From the NCBI GenBank assembly GCA_001404055.1, contig CXTY01000018.1, positions 1 through 64,000 of the forward strand: DNA of 64,000 nucleotides, written 5' to 3'. This document shows, in pieces, positions 1,112 through 17,348 of the stretch (positions are counted from its first letter, which is position 1; every line of letters begins with the position of its first letter). The notes below the pieces were generated by a model. That model was not told where the DNA came from. It ran no database searches and saw only the letters and a program-made list of their open reading frames with translations. The stretch is from Roseibium album. GTDB taxonomy: Bacteria > Pseudomonadota > Alphaproteobacteria > Rhizobiales > Stappiaceae. A program made the translations under genes and the position numbers.

Positions 1112-1573
1112 TCAGTCTCCGGCAACACGGTCGATTGGAATAATGTAGCTCTTTTGATGATCGGGTTCGGCGATCTTCTCATAAAGTGCGACTGCCGGCG
1201 TGTTCTTGCCGGGCACAATCCAGCGAAGATGCAGCCAGCCGCGTGATTTGCCCTCATCCACCAGCGAATCGATCATCTTGCGGCCGATGCCCTGGTTTTG
1301 ATGGTCCGGGTGAACGTAGATGTGGTCGAGCTGGCCCATGCGCAGCCCTGTGATCAGTTCTGGAAGATCGAAATAGACCGCAAAACCGATCAGTTCTTCG
1401 CCTGCGAAGGCGCCGAGAACCTCTGCGGCTTTGTCACCCAATATACGCTCTGCGTAGTATTCGTCTGGTCGGCGTGGTGCTCCGCGCCTCAGTGCCTGAG
1501 CGTTTTCAGCGATAAGTGGTGCAAGCTTATGGGCATCACCTTGCCCAATCGCCCTGATTTCCGTTGTCGTCAT
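1112..1573 (-). CDS. GNAT-family N-acetyltransferase
   Basis: A 153-residue protein with the whole GNAT fold. The acetyl-CoA binding motif A is visible as YVHPDHQNQGIGRKMID (around residues 85-101), with the Q-x-x-G-I-G/A pattern that wraps the pyrophosphate of acetyl-CoA. The segment LRWIVPGKNTPAVALYEK matches the later strand and helix where the acceptor and a general acid usually sit. The length is normal for a single-domain enzyme. The substrate cannot be read from the sequence; small-molecule amine, amino acid or toxin detoxification are all possible. It is a single gene transcribed towards the SDR gene. Confidence 0.85.
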   Translation of the reverse strand: MTTTEIRAIGQGDAHKLAPLIAENAQALRRGAPRRPDEYYAERILGDKAAEVLGAFAGEELIGFAVYFDLPELITGLRMGQLDHIYVHPDHQNQGIGRKMIDSLVDEGKSRGWLHLRWIVPGKNTPAVALYEKIAEPDHQKSYIIPIDRVAGD

Positions 1574-1726
1574 GAAATCCCCGGAAGTGGCATGTCATTG
1601 AATTGAGCCCCAACATGTCCCGAAACGGCAGCCAGGATCAAGGACCTGAATCAATTTCACCGTAAGCCTTTCGTTGTTTTTCTTTTCATGTCATGAGCGG
1701 AAACGATTTTTGAGGTGAATCTGAGC

Positions 1727-2626
1727 ATGGCAGACGCAAGGCAACTTAAAGCAACGATAATTGGGCTAAGCGCGGTCTTGATGTGGGCGACGCTTGGTTT
1801 GTTCGGTGCCGGGTCCGGTGCAGTTCCGCCGTTGCTGTTGAACGCTATCTGTTTTGGCATTTCCGGCTCTCTGGCGCTGATCTGGCTTCTGGCCAAGGGA
1901 AAGATCGCGTTGCTGCGTCAGCCTCTGAAAGTCTGGGCATTCGGAACGATTGGTCTGTTCGGATTCCATTTTTTCTATTTCACGGCGATCCGAAACGCAC
2001 CACCCGTTGAAGCCAATCTGATCAATTACACCTGGCCGCTATTGATCGTCGTGTTTTCTGCGTTTCTACCCGGCGAGCATTTGCGCTTGCATCACGTGAT
2101 CGGAACGGTTCTGGGCCTTGCTGGCGCAGCCTTGCTTATCACCGGTGGAGAAGGTATCGATTTTTCCGGCGGCTCTGCGCTCGGTTATGGTGCGGCGGTT
2201 GCCTCGTCGCTTTTCTGGTCCAGCTACTCGGTCCTCTCACGCCGTCTTGGTGCCGTGCCGACCGAAGCAGTGGCGGGGTTCTGCCTAATGACGGCACTCC
2301 TGTCCGGGATCTGCCACGTGTTTTTGGAAGAAACTGTCTGGCCGGCTGCGCCTTTGGAGTGGGCCTCGGTTATGGCGCTTGCGCTGTTTCCTATCGGACT
2401 GGCTTTTTTCACCTGGGACATTGGTGTGAAGCGCGGCGACATCCAGGTTCTGGGGGCTGCAGCCTATTCAGCCCCTCTTCTGTCAACGCTGTTGCTGATC
2501 GCCTTCGGCTTTGGTGCATTGACTGTTTCCGTTGGACTGGCCTGTGTCGCCATTACGCTTGGTGCCGTCATTGCCGCCAAGGACATGATTTTTAAAAAGC
2601 GGAAAATCCGGACCACTGGGCCCTAA
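1727..2626 (+). CDS. DMT-superfamily exporter, YddG/EamA type
   Basis: An integral inner-membrane protein of about 299 residues with ten predicted hydrophobic segments arranged as two EamA halves, the standard layout of drug/metabolite transporters. The start MWATLGLF and the internal FFYFTAIRNAPPVEANLINY and FWSSYSVLSRR segments resemble the aromatic amino acid exporter YddG. The frame opens at a GTG at 1715, but the ATG at 1727 has a GAGGT site about ten bases upstream and is preferred. Function is probably efflux of amino acids or related metabolites. It is monocistronic, 99 bases before the CitE-like gene, which has its own ribosome binding site. Confidence 0.8.
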   Translation: MADARQLKATIIGLSAVLMWATLGLFGAGSGAVPPLLLNAICFGISGSLALIWLLAKGKIALLRQPLKVWAFGTIGLFGFHFFYFTAIRNAPPVEANLINYTWPLLIVVFSAFLPGEHLRLHHVIGTVLGLAGAALLITGGEGIDFSGGSALGYGAAVASSLFWSSYSVLSRRLGAVPTEAVAGFCLMTALLSGICHVFLEETVWPAAPLEWASVMALALFPIGLAFFTWDIGVKRGDIQVLGAAAYSAPLLSTLLLIAFGFGALTVSVGLACVAITLGAVIAAKDMIFKKRKIRTTGP

Positions 2627-2725
2627 CGGGATTTTGGGAGCTTTCACCCCTTCGGAGAATTTCGAAAGGACGTCTGATCTATTAGGTTGGTCGCAAATAT
2701 CGTTTTGATTCACGGAGACCCTGCG

Positions 2726-3610
2726 ATGACCGCGCTGCTCAGACCCCGCCGATCTGCCCTCTATATGCCGGGTTCCAATGCCCGGGCCTTGGAAAAGGCG
2801 AAAACGCTCGATGTCGACTGCCTGCTACTGGACCTGGAAGATGCTGTTGCCCCGGACGCCAAGGAACTGGCGCGCAAGCAGGTCAGCGAGGCGGTAACGG
2901 CTGGCGGCTACGGTGAACGCGAAGTCGTCATCCGGATCAACGGCATGGACAGCGCCTGGGGCGAAGAGGACCTGAAGGTAGCGGTCAAAGCCAATCCGGA
3001 TGCGATCCTCGTTCCAAAGGTAAATGCACCGGCGGATTTGCAGCGCATCGCGCATCTGCTCTCCGTCTATGGCGCTTCTCACGAACTGAAACTCTGGGCG
3101 ATGATGGAAACACCCGAGGCCATGCTCAATGCAGCCGCCATCGGCGCTTGCGGCAGGGACCCTGAAGTGCGGCTTTCCTGTTTCGTCATGGGCACAAACG
3201 ACCTGGCAAAAGAAACCCGAGCTCGGCTGACGCCCGGCCGCTTTGCGATGATGCCATGGCTGATGACCTGCGTTGCAGCAGCCCGTGCCGGCGGCATTGA
3301 TATTCTCGACGGTGTCTACAACGCATTTCAGGACGAAGAAGGCTTTGCAGAAGAATGCACGCAAGGCGCTGAGATGGGTATGGACGGCAAGACGCTGATC
3401 CACCCAAAGCAGATTGCCGCCTGCCACACAGCCTTCAGCCCGTCTGACGCGGAAATCGACTGGGCGCGCAAGATCAATGACATCTTTGATCAGCCCGAAA
3501 ACGCCGACAAAGGTGCTATTCAGGTGGACGGCAAGATGGTTGAGCGGCTACATGCGGATATGGGCAAGCGGGCCATTGCCATCGCCGATGCCATTGCCGC
3601 CCGCGCTTGA
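2726..3610 (+). CDS. CitE-like CoA-ester lyase (HpcH/HpaI aldolase family)
   Basis: A 294-residue TIM-barrel protein of the HpcH/HpaI-citrate lyase beta family. Diagnostic segments are LYMPGSNARALEKA at the N-terminus, LLLDLEDAV (metal/substrate strand), ILVPKVN, MMETPEAM with the Mg-binding glutamate, and GTNDLAKE. Family members cleave or hydrolyse CoA esters such as malyl-CoA, methylmalyl-CoA or citramalyl-CoA. Without the rest of a pathway nearby the exact substrate is open. The open frame extends upstream to 2687, but the ATG at 2726 has ACGGAGA seven bases before it. DUF1737 follows after 18 bases and probably shares its transcript. Confidence 0.8.
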   Translation: MTALLRPRRSALYMPGSNARALEKAKTLDVDCLLLDLEDAVAPDAKELARKQVSEAVTAGGYGEREVVIRINGMDSAWGEEDLKVAVKANPDAILVPKVNAPADLQRIAHLLSVYGASHELKLWAMMETPEAMLNAAAIGACGRDPEVRLSCFVMGTNDLAKETRARLTPGRFAMMPWLMTCVAAARAGGIDILDGVYNAFQDEEGFAEECTQGAEMGMDGKTLIHPKQIAACHTAFSPSDAEIDWARKINDIFDQPENADKGAIQVDGKMVERLHADMGKRAIAIADAIAARA

Positions 3611-3628
3611 GAAAATTGAGAGACATCC

Positions 3629-3832
3629 ATGAAACTTTTTCGATTTATCACCGGTGTAGACGACAGCGAATTCTGCCACCGGGTCACCCAGGCCCTCAAC
3701 AAGGGTTGGGAGCTGTCCGGCTCACCGTCCCTGACCTATGACGCCACGCGCGGTGCGACCATCTGCGGTCAGGCCGTGACCAAGGAAGTTGCAGGTGAAT
3801 ATTCGCGGGATATCAAGCTCGGCGACTATTGA
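3629..3832 (+). CDS. DUF1737 family small protein
   Basis: A 67-residue protein of the DUF1737 family, recognised from the opening FRFITGVDDSEFCHRVTQAL, then the conserved GWELSGSPSL and CGQAVTKE. The family consists of short stand-alone proteins of unknown function; no catalytic residues are evident. It starts 18 bases after the CitE-like gene with a GAGAGA site and ends six bases before a strong terminator, so it closes that two-gene unit. Confidence 0.8.
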   Translation: MKLFRFITGVDDSEFCHRVTQALNKGWELSGSPSLTYDATRGATICGQAVTKEVAGEYSRDIKLGDY

Positions 3833-3837
3833 CAAAT

Positions 3838-3897: not shown

Positions 3898-3952
3898 GAG
3901 CAGCGGAATCATAATCCGCGTGTCGGGGGCTCAAGTCCCTCCTGCGCTACCA
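3898..3952 (+). repeat. tRNA(CAT) 3'-half remnant, copy 1 (attachment-site-like)
   Basis: The 55 bases run from a GAGC that looks like the 3' arm of a D stem, through an intact anticodon arm (GCGGA, loop ATCATAA, TCCGC; anticodon CAT), a variable loop, a T arm with loop CTCAAGT and a 3' end CTGCGCTACCA. The 5' acceptor strand and a normal D arm are missing: a terminator occupies the place where they should be. The sequence resembles alphaproteobacterial elongator tRNA-Met, although tRNA-Ile2 also has CAT. Such 3' fragments are the usual trace of integration into a tRNA gene. The bases from 3953 to 4201 hold no recognisable gene. Confidence 0.75.
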
Positions 3953-4201
3953 AATTTTTCAAAACAACATGTGTCTGGGCTGGGGTTTACCAGGAAATTT
4001 GCCGCCTATTTGCAGCAATGTTTTACTGAAGTTAATGCGCTGAAAATATGTAAAAAAATTCCGGACAATTCCGCCATGTCGGCTTCAGACTAAAGTTGGC
4101 CTGAAACGAATAGGCCTGGGCACACAAACTTGTCATTCCCAACCTGATTGCGCAGCTCTTGCTGCAGAGCGCTTGAATTGACGGCGAATGCTTGGACTTC
4201 A

Positions 4202-5503
4202 ATGGCTACCGTGCGAAAGAAACGGTGGGCTTGTCTGGCGCAACATCAGTGGGTACGACCACGTCGGGGGATCGGAACAATAGCAACAAGAAACTTCAAA
4301 CGACTGGTCTTTTATTTCCCCGGCTACGACCTGCGCCCTGTGCGTCAGACATTTCCTCTGATCCGAGCGGAGTGCCAGAGCTTTTTGAAGCTCCATGGGT
4401 TAGATGGAGCCTTGGGAGAGCCTTGTGAAAGTCATGAGTGCGGCAACGGTACGACGACCTGGGCAGGACATGTTGACTGGCCCGAGGGTCACGTAGAAAC
4501 CCGGTTCGTTCAGCTCGGTTGGCGGGATTTGATCCGGCCCGATTTCGAACGCTCTTGGCCGCGTACCATATTCGACGCGTTTCGCTCCTTTACACTTTAC
4601 GCCTTAGCCGGAGGCTATCGCGCTGTCTGGAAGAGCAACTGGGCTCACGCGCTATTCTGTCTTTATCCGGCAGTTGGCCTGTTGCTTTATCTGATTACCA
4701 GCTTCTTGCCGCCGCTTTTTCTAGCGTCCACAGTGCTCGGCGCGGTGGCTGCCACGTTGCCCGGTCCATATGCGGGCCTGATCTCTTGGAGCGTTTTTCT
4801 GATTGGCTGCACGCTCTGGATGGCGACGACCTATGGGTTCATGCAGTGGCTCGAACAGAAATCCTATTTCCGTTACCTTGTGAACAGCTGGTATTTCATT
4901 GAGCGGGTTGCCCGGAATGAACACGATCCAATGTTGGCACGCATCGAAGAGCATGCCGACATGATCGTTGCAATGGCGGACACGGTCGAGGATGAGGAGG
5001 TCGTGTTGGTGTCGCACAGCTGCGGCACTTTCGTCGCGATCTATATTCTCGCCGCGGTGCTGCGGCGCAATCCCGATTTCGGCACCCGTAGGGGCGGCTT
5101 CGCCTTTGTCACGCTCGGACCGGCCTTCGACTGCCTCGGCGGCTACGGTGCACAACACGGGTTCGGCGAAGCCATGGCAACGATTGCGCGCTCACGCGTC
5201 GACTGGACGGATCTCTATTCGCCTCACGATCCAATCTGCGGCGGTCGCACCCCGCCAATCGCCCGTTATGCTGCACTCACAAAAGCCGACGGCAGAAAGC
5301 CGGAACCAAGGCGTTTCAGCGTTCGCATTCCCGACCGGATGGCTCCGGCCACCTTCCGCTACCTGCGTCACCGCTTCTTCAAGCTCCACTTCTGCTATTT
5401 TCTCGCATCGGTGACCCCGGGTCTGTTTGATTTTTACCGTCTGACGCTTGGGCCAAAGCGCGCCGTAGAGCAGCTGAAGGCGTGGAACACCGGTCAGGAT
5501 TAA
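4202..5503 (+). CDS. Membrane-anchored alpha/beta-hydrolase-like protein of unknown function
   Basis: About 433 residues. The N-terminal third includes LVFYFPGYDLRPV, a typical early beta strand with an oxyanion-type loop. Two or three strong hydrophobic segments follow in the middle (FCLYPAVGLLLYLITSFLPP and the GLISWSVFLIGCTLWM region). The C-terminal part has a nucleophile elbow VVLVSHSCGTFVA (S-x-S-x-G), a later Asp in YSPHDPICGG and a His in the segment FKLHFCYF, a plausible Ser-Asp-His triad. This suggests a membrane-bound serine hydrolase, but no family name is certain. The frame opens at a TTG at 4148; the ATG at 4202 is chosen, with only a weak ribosome binding site. It directly follows the first tRNA remnant. 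Confidence 0.65.
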   Translation: MATVRKKRWACLAQHQWVRPRRGIGTIATRNFKRLVFYFPGYDLRPVRQTFPLIRAECQSFLKLHGLDGALGEPCESHECGNGTTTWAGHVDWPEGHVETRFVQLGWRDLIRPDFERSWPRTIFDAFRSFTLYALAGGYRAVWKSNWAHALFCLYPAVGLLLYLITSFLPPLFLASTVLGAVAATLPGPYAGLISWSVFLIGCTLWMATTYGFMQWLEQKSYFRYLVNSWYFIERVARNEHDPMLARIEEHADMIVAMADTVEDEEVVLVSHSCGTFVAIYILAAVLRRNPDFGTRRGGFAFVTLGPAFDCLGGYGAQHGFGEAMATIARSRVDWTDLYSPHDPICGGRTPPIARYAALTKADGRKPEPRRFSVRIPDRMAPATFRYLRHRFFKLHFCYFLASVTPGLFDFYRLTLGPKRAVEQLKAWNTGQD

Positions 5504-5662
5504 GACTTGGTTGGACCTTTTTTTCCCGTCGGCGCTAACTCTTCAATCTCCTGCGTCACTTATGATCCATGAAGAAGAGCCGCGATTTCTCCCTTGCGCA
5601 ATCGGCCTGAATGGAACCGTAGAACACGCACACCACGGAATTGTTTTTTGATTGCCAGATCT

Positions 5663-6463
5663 CTATTGCAGTTTGGTACGCAGCCAATCTGTGATGAGCT
5701 CCATAACCAGAACGATCACGAAAATCACAAGTATGATTGCCGAGGCATTCTTGTATTGAAAGAGATCAAAGGCCGCTTTCAACTCCTGCCCGATCCCACC
5801 AGCTCCAACAAGGCCAAGAACAACTGATGACCGCACCGCTTTTTCAAGTGCGAACAGGCTCGTGTTGATCATGGACGGTGCTGCATCCGGCAAAATAGCG
5901 CCAAAAAGTATGGAGACTTTGTTCGCACCTATCGCCGACAGTGCTTCTTGCGGCTCCTTATCCGCATCTTCCATTGCCTCAGCAAAGAAACGACCACAAA
6001 AACCAATCGTATCTACAACAATGGTCATGGTCCCTGCGACAGCTCCAAGTCCGACAGTCACCACAAAAAGAAGCGCCCAAACAAGATCCGGTATCGTGCG
6101 CAACAAGGACACCACAACCTTGACCAACCAGAAACCTGGACCGATCGGAGACACTTTCTTGGCAGCCAACCAACCGATGGGGAGACTGAGAATAATACCA
6201 ATCGCAGCGCCCGCCAGGGCAATTTGGAAGGTTTCAATCAAACGCAGCCCGACACGGTTCATGAAACTGGATTCCATGTTGGGCGGAAGCATGCGACCAA
6301 TCATTTTGACCATGCTCGGAACACCGTCTGCAAGCTGTGCAGGAGAAGGTGCGACGGAATTGATCGAACTCAATATGATCGCGCCCACGATGACAATCAG
6401 CACAAAGCTGATCGAAGATGAGCCGGAAAAACGGGCTCTGGCAGCGTGGTTCAACGAAGTCAA
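5663..6463 (-). CDS. phnE: Phosphonate ABC transporter permease PhnE
   Basis: A 266-residue inner-membrane permease. About six hydrophobic spans are visible, and the cytoplasmic EAA-type loop occurs in the segment EALSAIGANKVSILFGAILP, which contacts the ATPase. RTIPDLVWALLFV and GIGQELKAAFDLFQY are typical of PhnE. It imports phosphonates (or phosphate esters) with PhnC and PhnD. The start is TTG: its TTGA overlaps the phnC stop, and an AGGAGA site lies six bases upstream inside phnC, so translation is probably coupled. Only one permease gene is present, which is normal when PhnE forms a homodimer. It is the last gene of phnD-phnC-phnE. Confidence 0.9.
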   Translation of the reverse strand: MTSLNHAARARFSGSSSISFVLIVIVGAIILSSINSVAPSPAQLADGVPSMVKMIGRMLPPNMESSFMNRVGLRLIETFQIALAGAAIGIILSLPIGWLAAKKVSPIGPGFWLVKVVVSLLRTIPDLVWALLFVVTVGLGAVAGTMTIVVDTIGFCGRFFAEAMEDADKEPQEALSAIGANKVSILFGAILPDAAPSMINTSLFALEKAVRSSVVLGLVGAGGIGQELKAAFDLFQYKNASAIILVIFVIVLVMELITDWLRTKLQ

Positions 6464-7236
6464 TTGAAAGTCTCCTGCAGGTCCGTGTCGTCCACGTCAT
6501 CGGAGTCTTTGTCGAAAAGAACTTGTCCTGCCTTCAAAGCAATGATGCGGTCGGAGTAAGCTGCAGCGTGTTCCATATCGTGGCTGGTGAAGAGCAATGT
6601 AATGCCATGGGCACGCGCCAGGTCTGAAAACAGATCCATCACTTCCTTGCCGGATACCGGATCAAGGCTGGCCGCCGGTTCATCGGCAATTACGAGCTTC
6701 GGCCCTCGCACAATGGCGCGTGCAATTGCCACACGTTGCTGCTGACCGCCAGACAACGCATCTGCCCGGCTCTTTGCCTTGTCTTCAAGATGAACATCTT
6801 CGAGAGCAGAGAGCGCCTTTGTCCGCCAGTCAGAGGGCGCTGTCGCTTGCGTAAACGCGCGCCAACTTCCGGGCAATCCCAACATACCGTGAACAACGTT
6901 GGTGAGAACTGAGTGTCGCTTCACCAGACAGTGTTTTTGAAACACAAATCCTGTCTGCTTGCGCAGACGTGCGCGCTGTGTTGCAGACGGAACCTTGTTG
7001 AAGGTTTCACCGAGTGTATGGACTGAGCCCTCATTGAGTGCGTGAAGGCCAATCAGGCACTTCAATAACGTGGATTTCCCGCTACCGTTGGAACCAATTA
7101 ATGCAACCCGTTCCCCGTGACGGATAGACAGGTCGACCCCCTTCAGCACTTGCATACGGCCGTTGCTATAGGACTTTGTTAAGGCCGTTGTCGCGATTGC
7201 CACGTCGTTCTTGGCAGCAAGAGGAGATTGAAGCAC
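6460..7236 (-). CDS. phnC: Phosphonate ABC transporter ATP-binding protein PhnC
   Basis: A 258-residue ABC ATPase with Walker A GSNGSGKST (about residues 49-57), Q-loop region GFVFQKHCLVKRHSVLTNV, signature LSGGQQQR, Walker B LVIADEP and the switch histidine in FTSHDM. The Q-loop continuation (xxLVxRxSVLTNVxxG) is a signature of PhnC-type ATPases. It powers phosphonate import with PhnE. The start is a GTG at 7236 with GGAAAG upstream. The C-terminal end is acidic (DSDDVDDTD). It lies 107 bases after phnD and overlaps phnE. Confidence 0.93.
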   Translation of the reverse strand: MLQSPLAAKNDVAIATTALTKSYSNGRMQVLKGVDLSIRHGERVALIGSNGSGKSTLLKCLIGLHALNEGSVHTLGETFNKVPSATQRARLRKQTGFVFQKHCLVKRHSVLTNVVHGMLGLPGSWRAFTQATAPSDWRTKALSALEDVHLEDKAKSRADALSGGQQQRVAIARAIVRGPKLVIADEPAASLDPVSGKEVMDLFSDLARAHGITLLFTSHDMEHAAAYSDRIIALKAGQVLFDKDSDDVDDTDLQETFN

Positions 7237-7343
7237 CGAGCTTTCCTAGAGTTTTCAACTGAAATTGAAAGCGGCAGATGCGCCGCAAAAAGAAGAACGG
7301 AACGCGACATTGGTCGCGCTCCTTTTTGCTGACTATTGGATAT

Positions 7344-8195
7344 TTAGTTTCCAACGAACGAAGATGTATCCACACCGATCGTCTGGTACATGTCACGCAC
7401 GTAATTGTAGTTTTCGTCCTTCACACCGGTCAGAAAGAATCCACCACCGTATTTCTGGTTGTCTTCACCTTTCAGAACACCAGCCATCAAAGCACTGCTG
7501 TTTTCCAGGAATGCAGTCTTGATTTTCTCAAGCGCATCGCGGTCCATATCCGGACGGGCGACAAGAATATCGTTGGGCAAATCACGGCCGCGGGCAATCA
7601 CTTTGAATGCATGATCCGGGAAAGCTTTGCGGATGCCACGCAAATGACCATCGTTCATGCCAACAGCCTGAACGTCACCACGGATCAACGCTTCAGCTGC
7701 AACGTTGCGGGAGATAATTTGTGGTGTGTAGTCAGTGCCATAGGCAAGACCGAAATCGGCCAGAACCTGTGCAGGACCCAGATGCTGTGATGTGGAACCG
7801 ACACTGCCGAAGGTAACAGTCTGACCTTTCAGGTCTTGCGGACCTTCGATGCCACCTTCAGCCATGACAACAATCTGCGCGTAGTAGTTTGGACGCTGCC
7901 AGGCCACCACGATTTCCGCGTTGGTCAATTCCTTCATAACGACGTATTCCGCCGGGCCAGTCAAAACCAGATCAACTTTACTCTGGTTCAAGGATTCAAC
8001 TGCGGACGTCCGGGAGCTGACTGGGAAAAGCTCGATCTCCAATCCAGTTGAATTTTCCAGAGCTTTTTCGAAGGCAGCAAATTCCTGCTGCAGTGCTTCC
8101 AGGCCTTCAATATCCGTAACAGCAAAGCGAACCGGCTCAGCGGCAACGGGCAAGGCGAAAATCATTGCAGCAGCAGCAATAGCAGAGCGTAGCAT
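7344..8195 (-). CDS. phnD: Phosphonate-binding periplasmic protein PhnD
   Basis: A 283-residue secreted binding protein. The N-terminus MLRSAIAAAAMIFALPVAA is a signal peptide ending at an A-x-A-type site. The mature part carries PhnD/SsuA-like motifs, including VDLVLTGPAEYVV and VTFGSVGSTSQHLGP, where backbone and serine groups hold the phosphonate group. The frame opens 12 codons earlier at 8231, but the ATG at 8195 has GGAGATC seven bases upstream. It captures phosphonate in the periplasm for PhnEC. It heads the minus-strand operon and diverges from phnM across a 126-base intergenic region containing a strong palindrome. Confidence 0.9.
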   Translation of the reverse strand: MLRSAIAAAAMIFALPVAAEPVRFAVTDIEGLEALQQEFAAFEKALENSTGLEIELFPVSSRTSAVESLNQSKVDLVLTGPAEYVVMKELTNAEIVVAWQRPNYYAQIVVMAEGGIEGPQDLKGQTVTFGSVGSTSQHLGPAQVLADFGLAYGTDYTPQIISRNVAAEALIRGDVQAVGMNDGHLRGIRKAFPDHAFKVIARGRDLPNDILVARPDMDRDALEKIKTAFLENSSALMAGVLKGEDNQKYGGGFFLTGVKDENYNYVRDMYQTIGVDTSSFVGN

Positions 8196-8219
8196 TTTGA
8201 GATCTCCATATGGGGCTAT

Positions 8220-8235
8220 TCCTGTGTACACAGGA
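8220..8235. promoter_or_regulatory. 16-bp palindrome, candidate PhnF operator
   Basis: TCCTGTGTACACAGGA is a perfect palindrome 25 bases upstream of the phnD ATG in the phnD-phnM intergenic region. GntR regulators of the HutC subfamily, to which PhnF belongs, bind palindromes of this shape (TGT..ACA half-sites). A bound repressor here would block phnD transcription or its leader. The assignment to PhnF is inference from position and symmetry. Confidence 0.6.
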
Positions 8236-8321
8236 GTGTCACACAGTTTCTCTATAGATCGCCTTCGGTAACGATTTCATGACGCTCTTCTGGCATTTTT
8301 CTAATATTCGAGGGAAAAAAT

Positions 8322-9443
8322 TTGAGAGAAATAAGTATAAAGGGAGGTATATCACTCATAAATGGTGAATTAATTCATGAGCCGGTTAATATAAATTCCG
8401 GACTTTTTGTTGGTTCATCAACTGAAAACGCCAGAACTATTGACGCAACCAATTGCTTTGTGCTTCCAGGTATTGTGGATGTACATGGTGACGCCTTTGA
8501 AAGGGCAATCCAGCCACGTGCAAATGTCGACTTCCCGCTGCACCTTGCTTTAAAGGATGTGGACTGTCAGTTGATTGCCAACGGGATTACCACGGCCTAT
8601 CACGGTCTGACGGTCTCATGGGAACCTGGGCTGCGCAGCTATGAAGCCGCACTGGCTTTCAAAACCCAGTTAAAAGCCCTGCGCTCAAGCTTTGCTTGCG
8701 ATATGCATCTGAATATCCGCTGGGAAACCTTCGCCATGGATTATGTCGAGCAAATGATTGAGTGGATTCAAGACGATCCAAAATCAATCTTTTCTCTCAA
8801 CGACCACACAACAATCTATGTTGATCTGCCCAAAGGGTCTTCAAAAATCAGCCGCATGGCTGGTCGCTCCGGCTTGTCTGAAGACGACTGCCTGATCCTT
8901 ATTGGTGAAAAATGGGAACAACGACACAAAGTTCCAGCGGCAATTGAAGCGGTTTGTGCCGGCGCGAGAGCGGCAGGCTGTGCAATCTTTGCACATGATG
9001 AACTCACCCCGGAAATGCGCGCGAAACATCGTGCCCTCGGCGTTGCTGTTTCAGAGTTTCCAATGACTGTCGAAACGGCTAAAAGTGCAGCATCCAAGAA
9101 GGAGCATGTCGTTCTAGGCGCCCCAAACATTGTGCGGGGTGGCTCCCAGAACAATGCAATCGATGCGCGGGAGAGCATAGAGCAGGAACACTGCAGCGTT
9201 CTTGCATCGGATTACTATTATCCCGCTCCTCTCGCTGCTGCATTCAAGCTGACGGATGATGGGGTTCTTCCCTTGGAAAAAGCCTGGAACTTGATCTCGA
9301 AAAATGCAGCCGCTGCTGCAAATCTCTCAGATCGAGGACAAATCCGTGATGGACTGCGTGCAGATGTCATACTAGTCGACAAGGATACTCGAAGTGTCCG
9401 CACCGTTATTGTCAAAGGCCAGTTGTCGTACACGTTCAGGTAA
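8322..9443 (+). CDS. phnM: PhnM-type amidohydrolase (ribose-1-phosphonate triphosphate diphosphatase family)
   Basis: A 373-residue amidohydrolase-superfamily protein. The metal-binding motif VLPGIVDVHGDAFER, the segment IQPRANVDFPLHLALKD and the later FAHDELTPEM match PhnM, which hydrolyses alpha-D-ribose-1-alkylphosphonate-5-triphosphate to the monophosphate and pyrophosphate in the C-P lyase route. The start is TTG at 8322 with a GAGGGA site seven bases away. It is divergent from phnD and is followed 10 bases later by phnF. The genes for the C-P lyase core (phnG-L) are not in the window, so this copy either serves a distant operon or acts on another substrate. Confidence 0.85.
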   Translation: MREISIKGGISLINGELIHEPVNINSGLFVGSSTENARTIDATNCFVLPGIVDVHGDAFERAIQPRANVDFPLHLALKDVDCQLIANGITTAYHGLTVSWEPGLRSYEAALAFKTQLKALRSSFACDMHLNIRWETFAMDYVEQMIEWIQDDPKSIFSLNDHTTIYVDLPKGSSKISRMAGRSGLSEDDCLILIGEKWEQRHKVPAAIEAVCAGARAAGCAIFAHDELTPEMRAKHRALGVAVSEFPMTVETAKSAASKKEHVVLGAPNIVRGGSQNNAIDARESIEQEHCSVLASDYYYPAPLAAAFKLTDDGVLPLEKAWNLISKNAAAAANLSDRGQIRDGLRADVILVDKDTRSVRTVIVKGQLSYTFR

Positions 9444-9453
9444 ATCAACAAAA

Positions 9454-10275
9454 TTGATCGAGCCAGTTGTGACTGATCCGGACCTATTTCATTCCCTTGC
9501 TCGTGAGCCTTATCGAGCAAAAGCCGAACGAGCCATATGGCTGCAAATTTGTGATCGTCTGCAATGTGCTTACGAAAATGGCGAGCTGATGCCTGGCCTC
9601 AAACTTCCAGGAGAAATTCATCTGGCAGAAATCTTTCAGGTCAGCCGCATCACAATGCGCCGTGCTCTTTCCAAGCTGCAACAGGAAGGCCACCTGCAAG
9701 CCCGCAAAGGAGTAGGCATCTTTGTTCGCCGAAGGCCAGAGCGTTATGAAGTCGAAAGCAACATGCGTTTTATTGACGGCTTCAAGGTTGCCAATGAGCG
9801 CCTAACCAGCGAAACCCTGTCTCTGTCGCGAGATAAAGTATCCTTTGATGGCAGCAAGGCTCTGGGCATTCCGATAGGCAGCCAGGTCATAAGGTTGGTA
9901 AGGCGGAGAATTCTTGACGGCGAGCCAATCTATCTGACGATAAAAGAATTCCCAGGCAAACGGTTTCCCGAATTTGAACCTATCTATAAAAAAACTATGT
10001 CTGTTACAGACGTGTATCTGGCTCATGGCATCGAACGTCATGAAAGATTCGAAACACGCATCACGGGTGGATTTGCCAATGCGCAACAATCGGAGGGGCT
10101 GAAACTGACCCCGCGAACGCCTGTTCTGGAAGTCGTTGCCATCAACGGTGATCCGTCGGGAACAGCTGTGGAATACAACACCGGCTGCTGGCCGCTTTCC
10201 AGCGTCGAAATCGCTTTTTCCGGTTCTGCTGTTGGAGTGACACAGCCAAGGGACCGCCCCCTTCGTCAGCGATGA
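9454..10275 (+). CDS. phnF: GntR-family regulator, PhnF/HutC subfamily
   Basis: The N-terminal winged helix-turn-helix includes GLKLPGEIHLAEIFQVSRIT and MRRALSKLQQEGHLQARKG, the standard GntR DNA-binding core. It is followed by a UTRA effector-binding domain from about residue 95 to 245, recognisable in IRLVRRRILDGEPIYLT and ERFETRITGGFANAQQSEGL. This HutC-type layout is that of PhnF, which represses phosphonate genes. The start is uncertain: TTG at 9454 (10 bases after the phnM stop) is chosen, GTG at 9394 within phnM or GTG at 9469 are alternatives. No gene is seen between 10276 and 10495. Confidence 0.82.
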   Translation: MIEPVVTDPDLFHSLAREPYRAKAERAIWLQICDRLQCAYENGELMPGLKLPGEIHLAEIFQVSRITMRRALSKLQQEGHLQARKGVGIFVRRRPERYEVESNMRFIDGFKVANERLTSETLSLSRDKVSFDGSKALGIPIGSQVIRLVRRRILDGEPIYLTIKEFPGKRFPEFEPIYKKTMSVTDVYLAHGIERHERFETRITGGFANAQQSEGLKLTPRTPVLEVVAINGDPSGTAVEYNTGCWPLSSVEIAFSGSAVGVTQPRDRPLRQR

Positions 10276-10495
10276 TGACGCACGACTAGCAAAATAAGAT
10301 ACAACCTCTCCGCGCGGCCAAGCTTCCACACAGTCTGTTGCAAGCCAAGATTCTAGGTCGACAACTTCACTTTCTTATCGAAGTACACCAAGGCCGAAGC
10401 TTTCCAACGCCGGTAAAATTGTTCCAGGCGACTCTCTTTGGTATCAAGTCTGAAAATGTGATAAGTGCGAGCAAAACAACACTGGGAATGCACCA

Positions 10496-10729
10496 TTGAG
10501 CGAACTCACTGTAGCGGATGCAACGAACCACATTTATCAATCTCTCCAGGCGGACAATGAGGAGATTGACCAGCATATCGCGGCACTCAAGGCAGTGTTG
10601 AAGCGTGAAGGCTTGAAAGAGGTCGTCCTGGACCCGGTCAAGCTCGTCCAGAACAACCGCACTGGCCGCAAGCTGCTGCAGGCCTACTTTCGCCAGCGTG
10701 GTGTGAAGGTCTCATTCTCGACTTCGTAA
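10496..10729 (+). CDS. Small hypothetical protein, 77 residues
   Basis: A short alpha-helical protein with a mixed-charge N-terminal half (ADNEEIDQHIAALKAVLKRE) and a basic C-terminal half (NNRTGRKLLQAYFRQRGVKV). It is not recognised as a known family. The TTG start has GGGA nine bases upstream. It lies between phnF and the second tRNA remnant, the last gene of that segment. The composition would suit a small DNA- or RNA-associated protein, but nothing proves it. Confidence 0.5.
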   Translation: MSELTVADATNHIYQSLQADNEEIDQHIAALKAVLKREGLKEVVLDPVKLVQNNRTGRKLLQAYFRQRGVKVSFSTS

Positions 10730-10874
10730 CGCGAAGCTGTCTTAGACCTGCCGACGAGCCGTCTTCACCTCGAAGACAAAAAAGCAGCCAATTGCAAATA
10801 GCTATGCTGAATCCATCAGCATCAAATGGCTAATCTTTCTGCTGATCAGCTAGACAATCGTGTCTCGTATATCC

Positions 10875-10925
10875 GGCGGAATCATAATCCGCGTGTAGGA
10901 GGCTCAAGTCCCTCCTCCGCCACCA
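10875..10925 (+). repeat. tRNA(CAT) 3'-half remnant, copy 2 (attachment-site-like)
   Basis: GGCGGAATCATAATCCGCGT opens this 51-base copy, which shares the anticodon arm with copy 1 and then diverges only slightly. The T loop CTCAAGT and the 3' end CCTCCTCCGCCACCA are kept. There is no 5' half: the sequence before 10875 is unrelated to a tRNA and to the sequence before copy 1. It divides the phosphonate segment from the orphan binding protein. Apart from it, the bases between 10730 and 11034 show no gene. Confidence 0.75.
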
Positions 10926-11034
10926 ATTCCTGAAAGTATTCATGATGTAATTTTGGCGCGATGCAGCACAAGCTTCGGACGCGTGCCGCCCCATGCGCCT
11001 GTGATTGCGTGACTTCGTCGACAGGACCTGGTTG

Positions 11035-11898
11035 TTAGTATGCGGCCTCGGTCTCATTACCGTCGTGCCAGAAACGGTCGTCGATAGCCAGCGTTTCGGC
11101 AGACATGTTCGGGTTCGGCAATTCGAATCTGCGCCTGGTATCCAACTGAACATTCGAAAAAACATCTCGTATCGTTGGATGAGTATTGAAATAGGCCATG
11201 AAACTATCGTCATTGTATGCGGCCCGAAGACCCTGCTCGATCGCGGCGGCAGCCTCGGGCCGCTTTGGAGAGACGAAGAACAGGGCTGCATAGGGGTAAA
11301 CAATCATGAGATCGCGTTCGACCGCCAACTCGGAACCTTCCGACCGATTGACAACCTCCGCATGGGCCTCGGTGACGCCGCGCAAGAAACAGTCAAATCT
11401 CTCCGCAGCCGCCATGCCAAACAGTGACGAATAAGGTGCGGTTTTGACGGTAAAGCCTGCGCCTTCCAGTATCCGGACGTCAGGCCAGTCCGCCCCCTGT
11501 CCGATTAGTTTTTTGCGGAAATCTTCAAGGGTTCGGATTGGTGAAAAACGGTCCTGTGTGCCTTTTGCAATGATGCAGATGCGATGTCCGAGAAGGCCAC
11601 GCATAAGGGGAAGCCGCACCGGCAACAATGTCGCTTCCAGTTCACGAGATGTTCCGAACCACCCGACGGTCAGATCCCCGGATTTGAGCAAAGCAATATT
11701 TCGCGCTTGAGTAATACCGCCATCGGCAGGGATAAGTTCGTACGGCACATCGGACTTGCTCAGGCCAAGTTCAAGAAGTCCCAATGCGTAGTCTCCGATA
11801 TCGGGAGAATACCGAACCTCCAATGTGGTTGCAGCACACAATTGCGCAGAACCCAGCAACGCCATCGCGTATAACAAAGCACATCTAGCCAGAGCCAT
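11035..11898 (-). CDS. Orphan periplasmic solute-binding protein
   Basis: A 287-residue secreted protein. The N-terminus MALARCALLYAMALLGSAQL with CAA after it is a signal peptide. The body looks like a family-3-type periplasmic binding domain: early strand TLEVRYSP, then GDLTVGWFGTSRELEATLLP, and the hinge-like LMIVYPYAALFFVSPKRPEA. The frame opens at a TTG at 11934, but the ATG at 11898 has GAGGTG five bases before it. No permease or ATPase gene is nearby, so it may serve a distant transporter, a sensor kinase or a diguanylate cyclase. It is the only gene between tRNA remnants 2 and 3. Confidence 0.7.
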   Translation of the reverse strand: MALARCALLYAMALLGSAQLCAATTLEVRYSPDIGDYALGLLELGLSKSDVPYELIPADGGITQARNIALLKSGDLTVGWFGTSRELEATLLPVRLPLMRGLLGHRICIIAKGTQDRFSPIRTLEDFRKKLIGQGADWPDVRILEGAGFTVKTAPYSSLFGMAAAERFDCFLRGVTEAHAEVVNRSEGSELAVERDLMIVYPYAALFFVSPKRPEAAAAIEQGLRAAYNDDSFMAYFNTHPTIRDVFSNVQLDTRRRFELPNPNMSAETLAIDDRFWHDGNETEAAY

Positions 11899-12062
11899 AG
11901 TACACCTCGCCACCACGCCATTTCTTTGTGTCAATTAGAGTAAAAATAGGTAAAGGCGTTCAAGTACATTATATTCACATCTTAGCGGCAACAACACTTG
12001 ACGCAACGGAATAATATTTGCCTTAACAAGTTGGATTCACGTTAATATCGGGTCTTTCCGAT

Positions 12063-12100
12063 GGAATCATAATCCGCGTGTCGGAGGTTCAAATCGCTCC
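12063..12100 (+). repeat. tRNA(CAT) 3'-half remnant, copy 3 (most decayed)
   Basis: GGAATCATAATCCGCGTGTC is identical to copy 1 over 20 bases and is followed by a T arm with the loop TTCAAAT. The 5' side of the anticodon stem is damaged (GATGGA in place of AGCGGA), and after about 12100 the acceptor sequence and CCA have drifted away. It is the oldest-looking of the three copies. Confidence 0.65.
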
Positions 12101-12181
12101 CTTTCACGGATCACTCATCCGTTAATGTCAGTTGATGTGGTGGCAAGACATACTGGCGGCGAATTTGTTCCGGGGGCTAAT

Positions 12182-12739
12182 ATGGTTCGTATGCTTGCGT
12201 TGTTGTGTTTTTGTGTGCTGGTGGTTGCGCCTGCGGCCGCGACAGTGATCAACGGTGAAGTTCTGCGCCAGAACGGCAACGGCAAGTTCACATTGCTTGA
12301 TACGTCCGTGCCCTTTTCCGTTGGCCATGACAACTTCAATACGGACAATCTTTATGCGTTCGATGAAGATCAGAATATTCTTCTATCTGAACCGATAAGG
12401 GTCGATATCGGCGGTGATCGCGGAATGATCGCCCAGGGAAAAATCGTGGCGAGCCACTATGTCTTTTTTGACAGCTACTCGGGAATTCACGAAGGCTATG
12501 TGGATTTTGATGCACCGATTCTGGGAATTGCAGCGCTTCAGGAAACGCTGGCCGCGACCGATTTTCTGGCAAACAACTCGGTGAATTACATCAGTACAGA
12601 GCTAAGGGGCCTGGAACCTGGAGACTATGTCTGGGTGGACCCGGATGATCCGTTTCGCCTTTGGGTCTTTTGGGCTGGCTCTTCTCCGGGCGACTATATC
12701 CGGGTCTTCACTGAAAAATCCCTTGGGGCGATGATGTAG
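12182..12739 (+). CDS. Secreted hypothetical protein
   Basis: A 185-residue protein whose N-terminus MVRMLALLCFCVLVVAPAAA is a clear signal peptide. The mature part is rich in aspartate and aromatic residues (VDFDAPILGIA, GDYVWVDPDDPFRLWVFWAG) and suggests an all-beta extracellular domain. No family is recognised. The frame opens at 12125, but the ATG at 12182 gives the signal peptide directly. No C-terminal sorting motif is visible. It follows tRNA remnant 3 and converges on the unknown 12814-14037 gene. Confidence 0.6.
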   Translation: MVRMLALLCFCVLVVAPAAATVINGEVLRQNGNGKFTLLDTSVPFSVGHDNFNTDNLYAFDEDQNILLSEPIRVDIGGDRGMIAQGKIVASHYVFFDSYSGIHEGYVDFDAPILGIAALQETLAATDFLANNSVNYISTELRGLEPGDYVWVDPDDPFRLWVFWAGSSPGDYIRVFTEKSLGAMM

Positions 12740-12813
12740 CTTCCACAAATCGATGCCATATCCTGATGAGACAAATCCGGAATCGCTAACGGGCAAACGT
12801 GGGTTTCGCGACT

Positions 12814-14037
12814 TCACGGCCATTTATGTGGTCCGGTGCCATATCCGGCGCTGTGCCCACCCTTGATATTTCCAAGTATCGTCCCTTTGGGTTGAGGAAC
12901 ATAGCGGACCATTTTGAGCTCGGCTTGGGAAATACCTTCCTTCTTGGCATAATCGCGAACCAGTCGTTCGGCTGCCTCGTATCGCGCTTCCTGGCTTATT
13001 GCCTTGCTGCCGCCGGCACGCAAAGCCTTGATGCCGACGCCGACCCCGGTGACCAGCAACACGACCTCGGCCACCTGGCCGGCGGTTTTGGCGACTTTCA
13101 GGATTTTGACCGCCGATTCTGCGCCGCCGATCGTGTTTTCGAGATAGTCCGCAAGCCGTTGGGCGTTGTACTCGACCAGATGGGTCGCGATCAGCAAGTA
13201 GACTTGAGCCTTGACCACATCACCTCCGGCATTGGCGTCCCACGCCTTCATTCTCATCTTGTGCGCGCGGTTCCAGATATCGGTGCTGGGAAAGCTGGCA
13301 CCGCCCAGCCAGTCGGACACTCTGGTAACGCCGGGTGCAGCGCTGTGGCGGTTGCGCATGAGGTCGACGTGGAAATCCCATCCCCTGTCGTATTGAGCGT
13401 CGAAGCGCTCGAAGGAGCGTTTGAGTTTCGTCTGGACATGCCCTGTGAGCACGGCCGTGTAAAAGCCTGCACCCAGCATCGTGGTGCCGAGCAATTCTTC
13501 CCGGTTGATGATCGCGTCGTCGGTCTCGATGGTGTCACCGTCATAGCCGAGCGAGAACCAGAACTCCCAAACGGTGGGATCGCGCCCCTTCGGGTTCCAA
13601 GGTTGGCCTAGTCGCAGCCAGACACCCTTGCGGTTGAGGATTTCACGCACTTTTAGAAGATAGTCGGCTTCATCAGGATTGTTGGTGAGCGGAACCAGGG
13701 CGTCGGCAGTCAGCATCTTGTTGTGATCGACCCGAATGAAAGCGTCGTTTTTGGAAACCCGTACGCGTTTTTGAAGTATCTTTTTGGCTTTCCGCTCTTT
13801 CATCCGGTCACGCAGGACCAGGTTGCCGGAACGCGCGATCACCGATGCCTTCATGGCCTTTTGGTACGCCTCCACGTACATGGGGTTGAGTACCTCTGCG
13901 TCGAGCACGTTCTGAATCTGCGCGACCTGTTCCTTTGAAAGCAATCGCGCCAGGTGGGGAACGGTGGCGATGAGCGCTTCGGCTTCAGGCGCGCCCAGTT
14001 CACTTGCTTTACGGCGGTTGCGTGCTTCCAATCCCAT
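12814..14037 (-). CDS. Unknown ~407-residue multi-part protein, possible effector-like architecture
   Basis: The ATG at 14037 has AGGAGA eight bases upstream, so this start is preferred over the frame opening at 14097. The first ~100 residues are helical and charged (KASELGAPEAEALIATVPHL, then a basic KERKAKKILQKRVRVSK). The middle contains many tryptophans (WLRLGQPWNPKG, TVWEFWFSLGYDG, SDWLGGASFPSTDIWN). A helical region (LIATHLVEYNAQRLADYLEN) follows, then one hydrophobic span VAEVVLLVTGVGVGIKALRA. A short polar tail ends HSAGYGTGPHKWP. No homologous family is recognised. The modular layout, with a hydrophobic segment before a small C-terminal domain, resembles delivered toxins, but this is speculative and no immunity gene is evident. 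Confidence 0.55.
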   Translation of the reverse strand: MGLEARNRRKASELGAPEAEALIATVPHLARLLSKEQVAQIQNVLDAEVLNPMYVEAYQKAMKASVIARSGNLVLRDRMKERKAKKILQKRVRVSKNDAFIRVDHNKMLTADALVPLTNNPDEADYLLKVREILNRKGVWLRLGQPWNPKGRDPTVWEFWFSLGYDGDTIETDDAIINREELLGTTMLGAGFYTAVLTGHVQTKLKRSFERFDAQYDRGWDFHVDLMRNRHSAAPGVTRVSDWLGGASFPSTDIWNRAHKMRMKAWDANAGGDVVKAQVYLLIATHLVEYNAQRLADYLENTIGGAESAVKILKVAKTAGQVAEVVLLVTGVGVGIKALRAGGSKAISQEARYEAAERLVRDYAKKEGISQAELKMVRYVPQPKGTILGNIKGGHSAGYGTGPHKWP

Positions 14038-14244
14038 CTCAAATTCTCCTGTGAATCTGACACTGATATCAAATTGGCAGCCGTCTGATTTCATCAAGAC
14101 GGACGCTGCCTTTTTCTCAGTGTCATTCAGGAGTTATATGCCTGGTTCTCGCTGATTTTCTCTGTGCCGAAGGTCACAAATCTTTCCTATTGGCAGAGAT
14201 CCTGCCGTTCGACCTTGTGTGAGATCGCGGTCAACAGCTTGGCA

Positions 14245-14931
14245 TTAATGTCGTTCTGCCATCGCCGTTTCCCAGCCCTTCACCAGGATTGCACGGCGTC
14301 CCGGGTATTTACCCTCCAGCACTTCCAGTGCTCGAACCCGGTCTGTTCTGAAATGCCGGTAGTCCTGTCTGGTTTCGCACCAGGCGACGATAAACCGAAC
14401 CCGATCCAGGTAAGCGATAAGAAGTGGCCAAATCACACGCGTGGTGAGTGTGTCATTTTGATCTTTGTACGCCAACTGCAGCCTGGACCGGTCTCGAATT
14501 GCACGTCTCAAGGCAGCGCCGTCGAACTGTTCCTGAATTTTTGACTGAGGAAAGATTGACCTGGAGCTTGCATCTAAAACGATTGGACGGAGTTCCTGGG
14601 GTATTGCGTCCGACAGTTTTGTAACCAGGTCTCTGGCAGAGCGTGCAAGCGAAGGATCAGCTTGGGTCACAACCCAGGCTGCACCAAGCGCTGCTGCTTC
14701 CAACTCATCCGCCGTCAGCATCAGAGGTGGCATGTCGTATCCGTCGTCAAGGACGTAGCCTGTACCGGCTTCACCGGTGATCGGAACGCGTTGTGCGATA
14801 AGTTCGGCCATGTCACGGTATAAAGTGCGGAGAGAAATTTCCAATTCCTCTGCAAGGCTCCGCCCGGTCACTGGAGACCGGTTTGCCCTAAGAATCTGGA
14901 TGATCTGGAAAAGACGTTCAGTACGACGCAT
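14245..14931 (-). CDS. YafY-type transcriptional regulator (HTH + WYL domain)
   Basis: A 228-residue regulator. The N-terminal helix-turn-helix is RTERLFQIIQILRAN, then TGRSLAEELEISLRTLYRDM, typical of the HTH_11/DeoR-like fold of YafY proteins. From about residue 125 the WYL-domain pattern RDRSRLQLAYKDQNDTLTTR and RVIWPLLIAYLDRVRFIVAW follows; this domain senses ligands or nucleic acid. The frame opens at 14961; the ATG at 14931 with AGGAG six bases upstream fits better. It diverges from an SRPBCC gene, and a perfect 12-bp inverted repeat lies between them, which suggests control of both genes. Confidence 0.87.
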   Translation of the reverse strand: MRRTERLFQIIQILRANRSPVTGRSLAEELEISLRTLYRDMAELIAQRVPITGEAGTGYVLDDGYDMPPLMLTADELEAAALGAAWVVTQADPSLARSARDLVTKLSDAIPQELRPIVLDASSRSIFPQSKIQEQFDGAALRRAIRDRSRLQLAYKDQNDTLTTRVIWPLLIAYLDRVRFIVAWCETRQDYRHFRTDRVRALEVLEGKYPGRRAILVKGWETAMAERH

Positions 14932-14938
14932 TTCTTTC

Positions 14939-14977
14939 TCCTGCTGACACACTACTGCCATAACGGTGTCAGCAGGA
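14939..14977. promoter_or_regulatory. 12-bp perfect inverted repeat, likely operator of the WYL regulator
   Basis: TCCTGCTGACAC (14939-14950) and GTGTCAGCAGGA (14966-14977) are exact reverse complements with a 15-base spacer. The repeat starts eight bases upstream of the regulator ATG and overlaps its ribosome binding site; the divergent SRPBCC gene begins about 70 bases on the other side. Autoregulation and control of the partner gene are inferred. Confidence 0.65.
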
Positions 14978-15044
14978 CAACTTTATCAGGGTGCCAACAC
15001 CAAGGAGCTGCAGCGGCTCACTTGCCAGGAATGAGGAAATGGAA

Positions 15045-15518
15045 ATGATACGACACCAGCGAACTCTCGTGATCGACGCCAGTCCTGATGCGGTCTGGGA
15101 GGTTCTCGGCCAATTTATGCATATCGACGCGTTTGCACCGCTCGTAAAGTCGGTTGATGCGCTGACTGACGGTGAAGACCAGGTTGGTTCAAAGCGTCGT
15201 TGCAACTTTGATGACGGTAACTCCGTTGTCGAAGAGGTGACAGAGTGGGAAGCAGGTCGCGGGTATCGCGTTCGATTGTCGGAAACAGACCCCATGCCGC
15301 TTGAAGAAGCCTATGCGGAGTTGCGCATCAAACCACAGGGTTCAGCGCAAACGCTTGTGGAGTGGAGCATGGACTATCGCGTGAAGTATGGTCCATTTGG
15401 ATGGTTGCTGGGCCAGACCATGATGAAAGTCATGATGAGCAAGATACTTGATGGAAATCTGAAAGGATTGGCTGACAAGGTCCTGTCAAATCGAACAGCA
15501 GCAGCGCGTACGGCCTGA
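15045..15518 (+). CDS. SRPBCC-family protein (START-like lipid/ligand binding fold)
   Basis: A 157-residue protein with the polyketide cyclase/SRPBCC opening VIDASPDAVWEVLGQF and the conserved VKSVDALTDGEDQVGSKRRC and VEEVTEWEAGRGYRVRLSE strands. The fold forms a deep hydrophobic cavity; members bind lipids, polyketides or aromatic ligands. The long C-terminal helix includes GWLLGQTMMKVMMSKILDGN. Start choice is between ATG 15039 and ATG 15045; GAGGA seven bases before 15045 favours the latter. It is the only gene on this side of the shared inverted repeat, so the WYL regulator probably controls it. Confidence 0.8.
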   Translation: MIRHQRTLVIDASPDAVWEVLGQFMHIDAFAPLVKSVDALTDGEDQVGSKRRCNFDDGNSVVEEVTEWEAGRGYRVRLSETDPMPLEEAYAELRIKPQGSAQTLVEWSMDYRVKYGPFGWLLGQTMMKVMMSKILDGNLKGLADKVLSNRTAAARTA

Positions 15519-16584: not shown

Positions 16585-16603
16585 GATGACATTCCCTCTG
16601 CGG

Positions 16604-17251: not shown

Positions 17252-17348
17252 GATGCAATGTCCTAAATCGTTGGTGCCACAAGGCATTGGATCCCAAGGT
17301 CAGGCCCTAGCTAAACCCCGTGTGTGGCGAAGCTTTGGCATTTCAGGA

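Follow-up and report, generated by a model that had tools for sequence, protein, structure and literature searches.

Three tRNA-Met fragments in an insert between core genes

The first 64 kb of contig C18 in the draft genome of Roseibium album (G000; 5.99 Mb, 41 contigs), hereafter the window, carry three 3' halves of a tRNA-Met(CAT) gene within an insert of accessory genes flanked by conserved core. Our reading, held with slightly more confidence than doubt, is that this insert consists of integrase-less cassettes joined at tRNA-Met attachment halves in an insertion hotspot that is not a tRNA gene. The features on which the reading turns are the following.

1112-3833: core left of the insert (GNAT, EamA, HpcH/HpaI-type lyase and a small gene), assigned from synteny in relatives and Pfam
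3898-3955, plus strand: copy 1, tRNA-Met 3' half with CCA, at the left insert edge
10876-10926, plus strand: copy 2, tRNA-Met 3' half with CCA
11905-12062, plus strand: left arm of copy 3, of one family with the arms at C2:24332 and C8:86021
12063-12100, plus strand: copy 3, decayed tRNA-Met 3' half without CCA
15604-20117, minus strand: core right of the insert (RimK-like ATP-grasp, LolA, FtsK)

Aligned to the intact tRNA gene, copy 1 was 97% identical across 3898-3957, copy 2 92% across 10876-10926, and copy 3 92% across 12063-12100 only, where the similarity ends in the T arm and CCA is therefore absent. A first-pass annotation made from the sequence alone had described three near-identical plus-strand halves, the first two keeping CCA and the third lacking it, and these alignments agree with it; with up to two mismatches allowed, the window has exactly three occurrences of the 19-mer GGAATCATAATCCGCGTGT, and 100 shuffles gave none. 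The same annotation held the sequence before each fragment to be unrelated, which is so when the three are compared with one another, but copy 3 is preceded by an arm whose family also precedes the halves at C2:24500 and C8:86199 (the left-arm profile matches 11905-12100 including the half, the window sequence itself being one of its 12 members). ARAGORN found no tRNA in the window and Rfam nothing at gathering score, ruling out an intact tRNA, a transfer-messenger RNA or a known RNA family there, and a role of the halves as RNA was set aside because the copies are decayed to differing degrees.

The small core gene ends near 3831 and is followed by a terminator-like hairpin (by eye), and copy 1 begins where the left core ends. 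Relatives join the core at 1112-3833 to about 16376-20000, as seen in a comparison with 15 genus genomes. The gap between the matched core blocks was 0.7-1.04 kb in six of these (G001, G003, G004, G007, G008 and G014), 2.2-7.2 kb in five (G002, G006, G011, G012 and G013), about 15.7 kb in G005 and G010, and about 40 kb in G009, while G015 has the two blocks on separate contigs; the short gap of G007 is a diverged RimK-like gene, and such a gene lies there in the six relatives read. Since the core is joined across the gap in relatives, the window carries an insert at about 3.9-15.5 kb, in a hotspot that is not a tRNA gene. No half match among those listed for the 15 genomes falls in the core gap.

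Dispersed halves in the genome and the genus

The closest intact gene is tRNA-Met(CAT) at C3:109716, a CAT gene of the initiator, elongator or Ile type. At E <= 1e-7 the genome holds this one intact gene and 11 remnants (C18:3898, 10876, 12063 and, on the minus strand, 147314; C8:80397 and 86199; C6:103055; C3:8506, minus strand; C19:10217, minus strand; C2:24500; C35:205778), none of which lies downstream of the tRNA on its own contig and strand. Across 45 genus genomes, where each genome's best match was taken as its tRNA gene (sequence-checked in G000 and 12 relatives), we counted 23 remnants outside G000, borne by 18 of the 44 genomes (zero to four per genome, with the maximum in G008); 15 of the 23 were downstream on the tRNA's contig and strand within 70 kb, one (G017) was likewise downstream at a distance of 1.04 Mb, and seven were on other contigs. 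Matches at G016:C11, G015:C11 and G022:C5 (85% over 48 bases), which are probably tRNA-Phe, were dropped from this count, and a half cut by a contig end in G054 is uncounted. Remnants in the relatives start at or near the anticodon loop and have distinct left arms, with a sharp start at ATCATAATCC in some (G008 at 92868 and 151366, and G013).

The fragments thus retain the identity first given to them, the 3' part of a single tRNA, of the kind that tyrosine-integrase elements leave: like attR remnants, that is, attachment-site (att) halves of the right-junction type, they comprise a tRNA 3' part, start near the anticodon and have an intact tRNA in the same genome, and only the position downstream of that tRNA on the same strand is missing here. 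Serial same-direction insertion at the tRNA, as had been proposed for the window, does occur in the genus, but the three copies here are part of a dispersed set.

As a control, 718 kb of G000 were searched with the 3' 50-mer of each of 27 distinct tRNAs, which represent 30 of the 44 tRNA loci, yielding 11 remnants for Met, two each for Arg(CCT) and Pro(CGG) and none for the other 24; the DNA was chosen around the Met copies, so that the comparison favours Met. The tRNA-Phe 50-mer gave weak cross-matches to the Met copies. The paired tRNA-Arg(CCT) halves (C18:116127-116171 and 147510-147558) and tRNA-Pro(CGG) halves (C6:135564-135609 and 146426-146472) stand on contigs without their intact genes, each with an integrase nearby, and so other tRNAs also leave halves off-site.

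Two further remnants lie in inserts within colinear core: the C3 insert (3916-8866) spans 4.95 kb where G006 has about 41 bp and is flanked on both sides by a terminator-like hairpin (by eye), and the C6 insert (102434-114623) measures 12.2 kb against 0.35 kb in G006. The region at about 75.9-90.6 kb of C8, with two halves, is less tightly resolved against the core, and the remnants on C2, C19 and C35 and at C18:147314 were left unplaced relative to it. Separately, C6:103605-103873 is a 269-bp repeat resembling a miniature inverted-repeat transposable element, with inverted ends of about 33 bp, at least eight further copies in G000 and many in relatives.

The half as a joint between blocks

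Flanks of 300 bp were compared for 31 remnants: all 11 from G000, and every remnant of the relatives except those of G015, G052 and G058, which makes 20 of 23. At E <= 1e-3, 26 pairs had flank homology: 19 on the left only, six on the right only and one on both sides. These pairs are not independent, as they come from few arm families and two right-hand pairs (C2 with C18:147314, and C2 with G053) share sequence resembling an insertion sequence (IS). Homology was one-sided in 25 of 26 pairs, which argues that the half behaves as an exchange joint; 13 of the 19 left-only alignments come within five bases of the half, and three of the six right-only alignments start within five bases of it. The halves at C8:80397, C6 and C3, for example, have a common left arm of 72-77 bp and nothing common on the right, while between C6 and C19 the homology is confined to 124 bp of the right flank. 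In the window, 3901-5518 corresponds to G006:C40:27926-29545, with the hydrolase gene in common from the half onward and unrelated left sides, and this G006 copy lies 9 kb behind that genome's tRNA-Met. Sequence similar to the right flanks of C6 and C19 occurs a short way past the intact tRNA in G013 and G047, as expected if further elements start there. The IS-like sequence itself starts a few to some 45 bases past the halves at C2:24549, C18:147314 (minus strand) and G053:C5:158785.

An integrase linked to the halves, and an empty site

IntM, an integrase of 312 amino acids encoded at C2:21951-22889, lies 1.6 kb before the remnant at C2:24500 on the same strand. At six further places among the fetched loci (G003, G004, G008 twice, G018 and G050), a relative of IntM with 82-85% identity is followed at 0.86-0.89 kb by a remnant on the same strand. 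At G023 a more distant relative (42% identity) precedes the remnant by about 0.1 kb, and a 41-amino-acid fragment is located about 7 kb from a G003 remnant. From this association with remnants, IntM-type proteins are probably the integrase for tRNA-Met in this lineage. Searches of plasmids and phages returned only matches to IntM below 60% identity (753 and 2100 records, respectively). IntM scores 66.7 bits against the integron integrase model TIGR02249 (cut-off 265) and the window is integrase-free, both of which speak against an integron cassette array.

The first-pass annotation had stated that no integrase remains. This holds for the window, where none was found among the subset of 20 open reading frames (ORFs) run on Pfam and a genome-wide PF00589 search gave no match within C18 bases 1-64000, but not for the genome, which has a fitting candidate in IntM. 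Related genomes had also been proposed as a source of empty sites, and one exact site emerged: the flank directly behind the tRNA in G004 corresponds to the flank behind the remnant at G008:C25:92868 (91% over 280 bp), is colinear with it again at 4.5 kb, and matches nothing in the 11 kb that separate the tRNA of G008 from this remnant. It was the sole empty site of such clarity in the flank comparison.

A Met half also occurs at the end of element D, present as C19:10219-15240 and C35:200818-205835 (81% identity over 5.06 kb, integrases 95% identical). The copies start at tRNA-Ser(CGA) and tRNA-Ser(GCT), and both end at the CCA of a tRNA-Met half, from which it follows that a Met half can travel with a segment that has another target. 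Relatives of the element D integrase lie directly behind tRNA-Ser in G008 and, of a separate eight loci found, on two SAR116 contigs. The far end of element D showed no tRNA-Ser remnant, and the right boundary of the element is thus provisional.

Cargo of the insert

The genes between and behind the halves are as follows.

3956-10770: unit 1, between copies 1 and 2 (Pfam; homologues in the zone downstream of tRNA-Met in relatives)
4148-5503: hydrolase-like ORF of 451 amino acids, unit 1
5663-6463, minus strand: ATP-binding cassette (ABC) permease, unit 1
6460-7236, minus strand: ABC ATPase, unit 1
7344-8231, minus strand: phosphonate-type binding protein, unit 1
8322-9443: PhnM-like gene, unit 1
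9394-10275: GntR, unit 1
10499-10729: ORF of 76 amino acids, unit 1
11035-11934, minus strand: unit 2, ORF of 299 amino acids resembling a periplasmic binding protein by eye
12109-15518: remainder of the insert, four ORFs
12125-12739: ORF of 204 amino acids, remainder
12814-14097, minus strand: ORF of 427 amino acids, remainder
14245-14961, minus strand: WYL regulator, remainder
14991-15518: ORF at the end of the insert

Two stretches, 3898-10926 and 10876-12100, hold cargo between two att halves and contain neither integrase nor transfer genes (the latter judged from Pfam matches only), the arrangement that defines a cis-mobilisable element. The hydrolase-like protein has a catalytic-elbow motif by eye, no Pfam or NCBIfam match, and 82% protein identity in G006. 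The genes at 5663-10275 combine a phosphonate transporter with a PhnM-like diphosphatase and a GntR regulator, and no carbon-phosphorus lyase core gene was found among the neighbouring window ORFs scanned. The 299-amino-acid protein of unit 2 had no Pfam or NCBIfam match. Carriage of unit 1 on a plasmid was rejected: of 54 plasmid records matching 4148-11934 none covers 80%, with eight short matches above 80% identity left unexamined.

Interpretation and alternatives

In the reading that we favour, a tyrosine integrase would recognise the tRNA-Met(CAT) gene and cross over at its anticodon loop, so that the fragments would be attachment-site halves (attR-type junctions) of its elements. The stretches between halves would be cis-mobilisable cassettes without an integrase of their own, added or exchanged at the halves and moved probably by an integrase acting in trans, and their site a hotspot between the small core gene and the RimK/LolA/FtsK genes, away from any tRNA. 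Most likely, an IntM-type integrase made and used the halves and integrase-less cargo accreted at them; such an integrase may also have moved the window cassettes, with halves away from the tRNA presumably serving as landing sites. The first half could have reached the hotspot by secondary integration, by carriage on another element or by passive import.

Several observations weigh against this reading. An IntM-type gene stands beside only seven of the 31 remnants (one of 11 in G000, six of 20 in relatives) and beside none in the window. Several relatives carry other DNA at the hotspot without any Met half, which makes the half dispensable for insertion there. The empty sites read from relatives have no tRNA-like sequence by eye. 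A Met half at each insert edge proved false, the halves being set about 0.3 kb inside the C3 insert and about 0.6 kb inside the C6 insert. Six of the 19 left-hand BLAST alignments end 28-174 bases short of the half and three of the six right-hand ones start away from it. Neither a circular form nor a relative missing exactly one window unit was seen.

The hotspot's variation in many relatives without Met halves would also suit passive import, in which half-bearing DNA from the tRNA-Met islands of other strains entered by homologous recombination in flanking genes and no integrase acted here. Some of the cargo is also more similar to relatives than the core is: the hydrolase gene is 89% identical to that of G011 while the core is at 75-77%, the arginase block of C8 is 86% identical to G006 while its core is at about 78-81%, and import accounts for the location about as well as cassette accretion does. 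Alone, however, it leaves unexplained both the one-sided flank homology at the halves and the presence of 11 remnants here against zero to four in other genomes, and we consider it unlikely, if deserving of serious weight.

We regard as improbable that a large array behind tRNA-Met was broken by IS-driven or other rearrangement and its remnants carried off, a process for which Thermococcus, where partial and full tRNA copies are separated by an inversion, offers a parallel in the available part of the account (PMC9897764). In G006 and G011 the 76-amino-acid ORF is contiguous with a small gene found here behind tRNA-Met, at C3:109908; the order was therefore either broken in G000 or joined in theirs, and about 92 bp of dispersed IS-like sequence occupy the joint between tRNA and small gene on C3. 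The window, C3 and C6 inserts, however, are pieces of 5-12 kb in otherwise colinear core. A clean excision scar at tRNA-Met, left by a unit ending in the 76-amino-acid ORF, was rejected because of that IS-like sequence, and is weakened also by G003, where the small-gene homologue lies near a homologue of the window's 204-amino-acid ORF; we retain the differing adjacency as a fact and make no claim of excision from the tRNA-Met locus.

Plain serial insertion at an intact tRNA(CAT) gene just left of base 1, as the first-pass annotation predicted, is highly improbable: the copies are in same-strand order and such arrays exist in relatives, but copy 1 is preceded by conserved core which, in relatives, continues into the right-hand core, and the intact gene on C3 has its own conserved upstream neighbours, so that synteny refutes the prediction barring a second intact copy past the contig end at which the window starts. 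That end (1-231) is itself a repeat with eight further genome sites, seven of them at contig ends, and is probably an assembly-breaking insertion sequence. An assembly artefact at short repeats, conceivable in a draft where the C19 and C2 halves share 49-53 identical bases with the tRNA, is equally remote, since the longest identical run between copy 1 and the tRNA is at most about 32 bases, core resumes past the inserts and other assemblies too have off-contig remnants.

A wider proposal is offered only tentatively and is, on balance, doubtful: tRNA-Met 3' halves might be portable attachment sites that travel on gene blocks and on other elements, such as element D, and seed core sites other than tRNA genes, one tRNA-Met integrase family shuffling operons (phosphonate, arginase, PPK2) as half-bounded cassettes between chromosomal stations, with the tRNA half in an attC-like role. 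Whereas tRNA 3'-end repeats are usually taken as island borders beside the tRNA, here they are dispersed and stand at the joints of gene blocks, giving a handle on how core hotspots with no apparent mobile element acquire cargo that lacks mobility genes. The pair of IntM and tRNA-Met half is small enough for direct testing.

Comparison with known systems

A close parallel is with the ssrA islands of Dehalococcoides (PMC3146451). In the part of that account available, the islands stand in series, with the 3' end of a single RNA gene repeated at their borders; no integration module is present in 15 of them, for which cis-mobilizable status is discussed as a possibility, and accretion is invoked. 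The repeats of that system are all confined to the 100 kb downstream of ssrA and its integrase is Ccr-like, whereas the system here appears to use a tyrosine integrase and has no remnant downstream of its tRNA on that contig. The window units share with cis-mobilisable elements and accretion, as the term is used in the same source, the cargo between attachment halves without recombination genes, but they are away from the primary target and their mobility is predicted only. Tycheposons of Methylophilaceae (PMC10872708), as far as the available text describes them, are likewise tRNA-bordered cargo islands, including some at tRNA-Met(cat), with a tyrosine recombinase; their border tRNA and recombinase are both absent from the window, which has halves only. 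Salmonella genomic island 1 (SGI1), according to the accessible portion of PMC2297512, integrates site-specifically and has in addition a secondary target between genes, at which arrays form, but it is a complete element with integrase, studied experimentally, while we describe integrase-less pieces at several loci.

A literature search limited to titles and abstract openings, with few subscription papers, returned no report of one tRNA's halves dispersed over non-tRNA core sites. Serial islands with RNA-gene 3'-end repeats and integrase-less members (PMC3146451), and a secondary site with tandem arrays (PMC2297512), were already known from what is available of these sources; the new part is the dispersal, with 11 halves of one tRNA, none of them behind that tRNA, and at least three inserts in colinear core.

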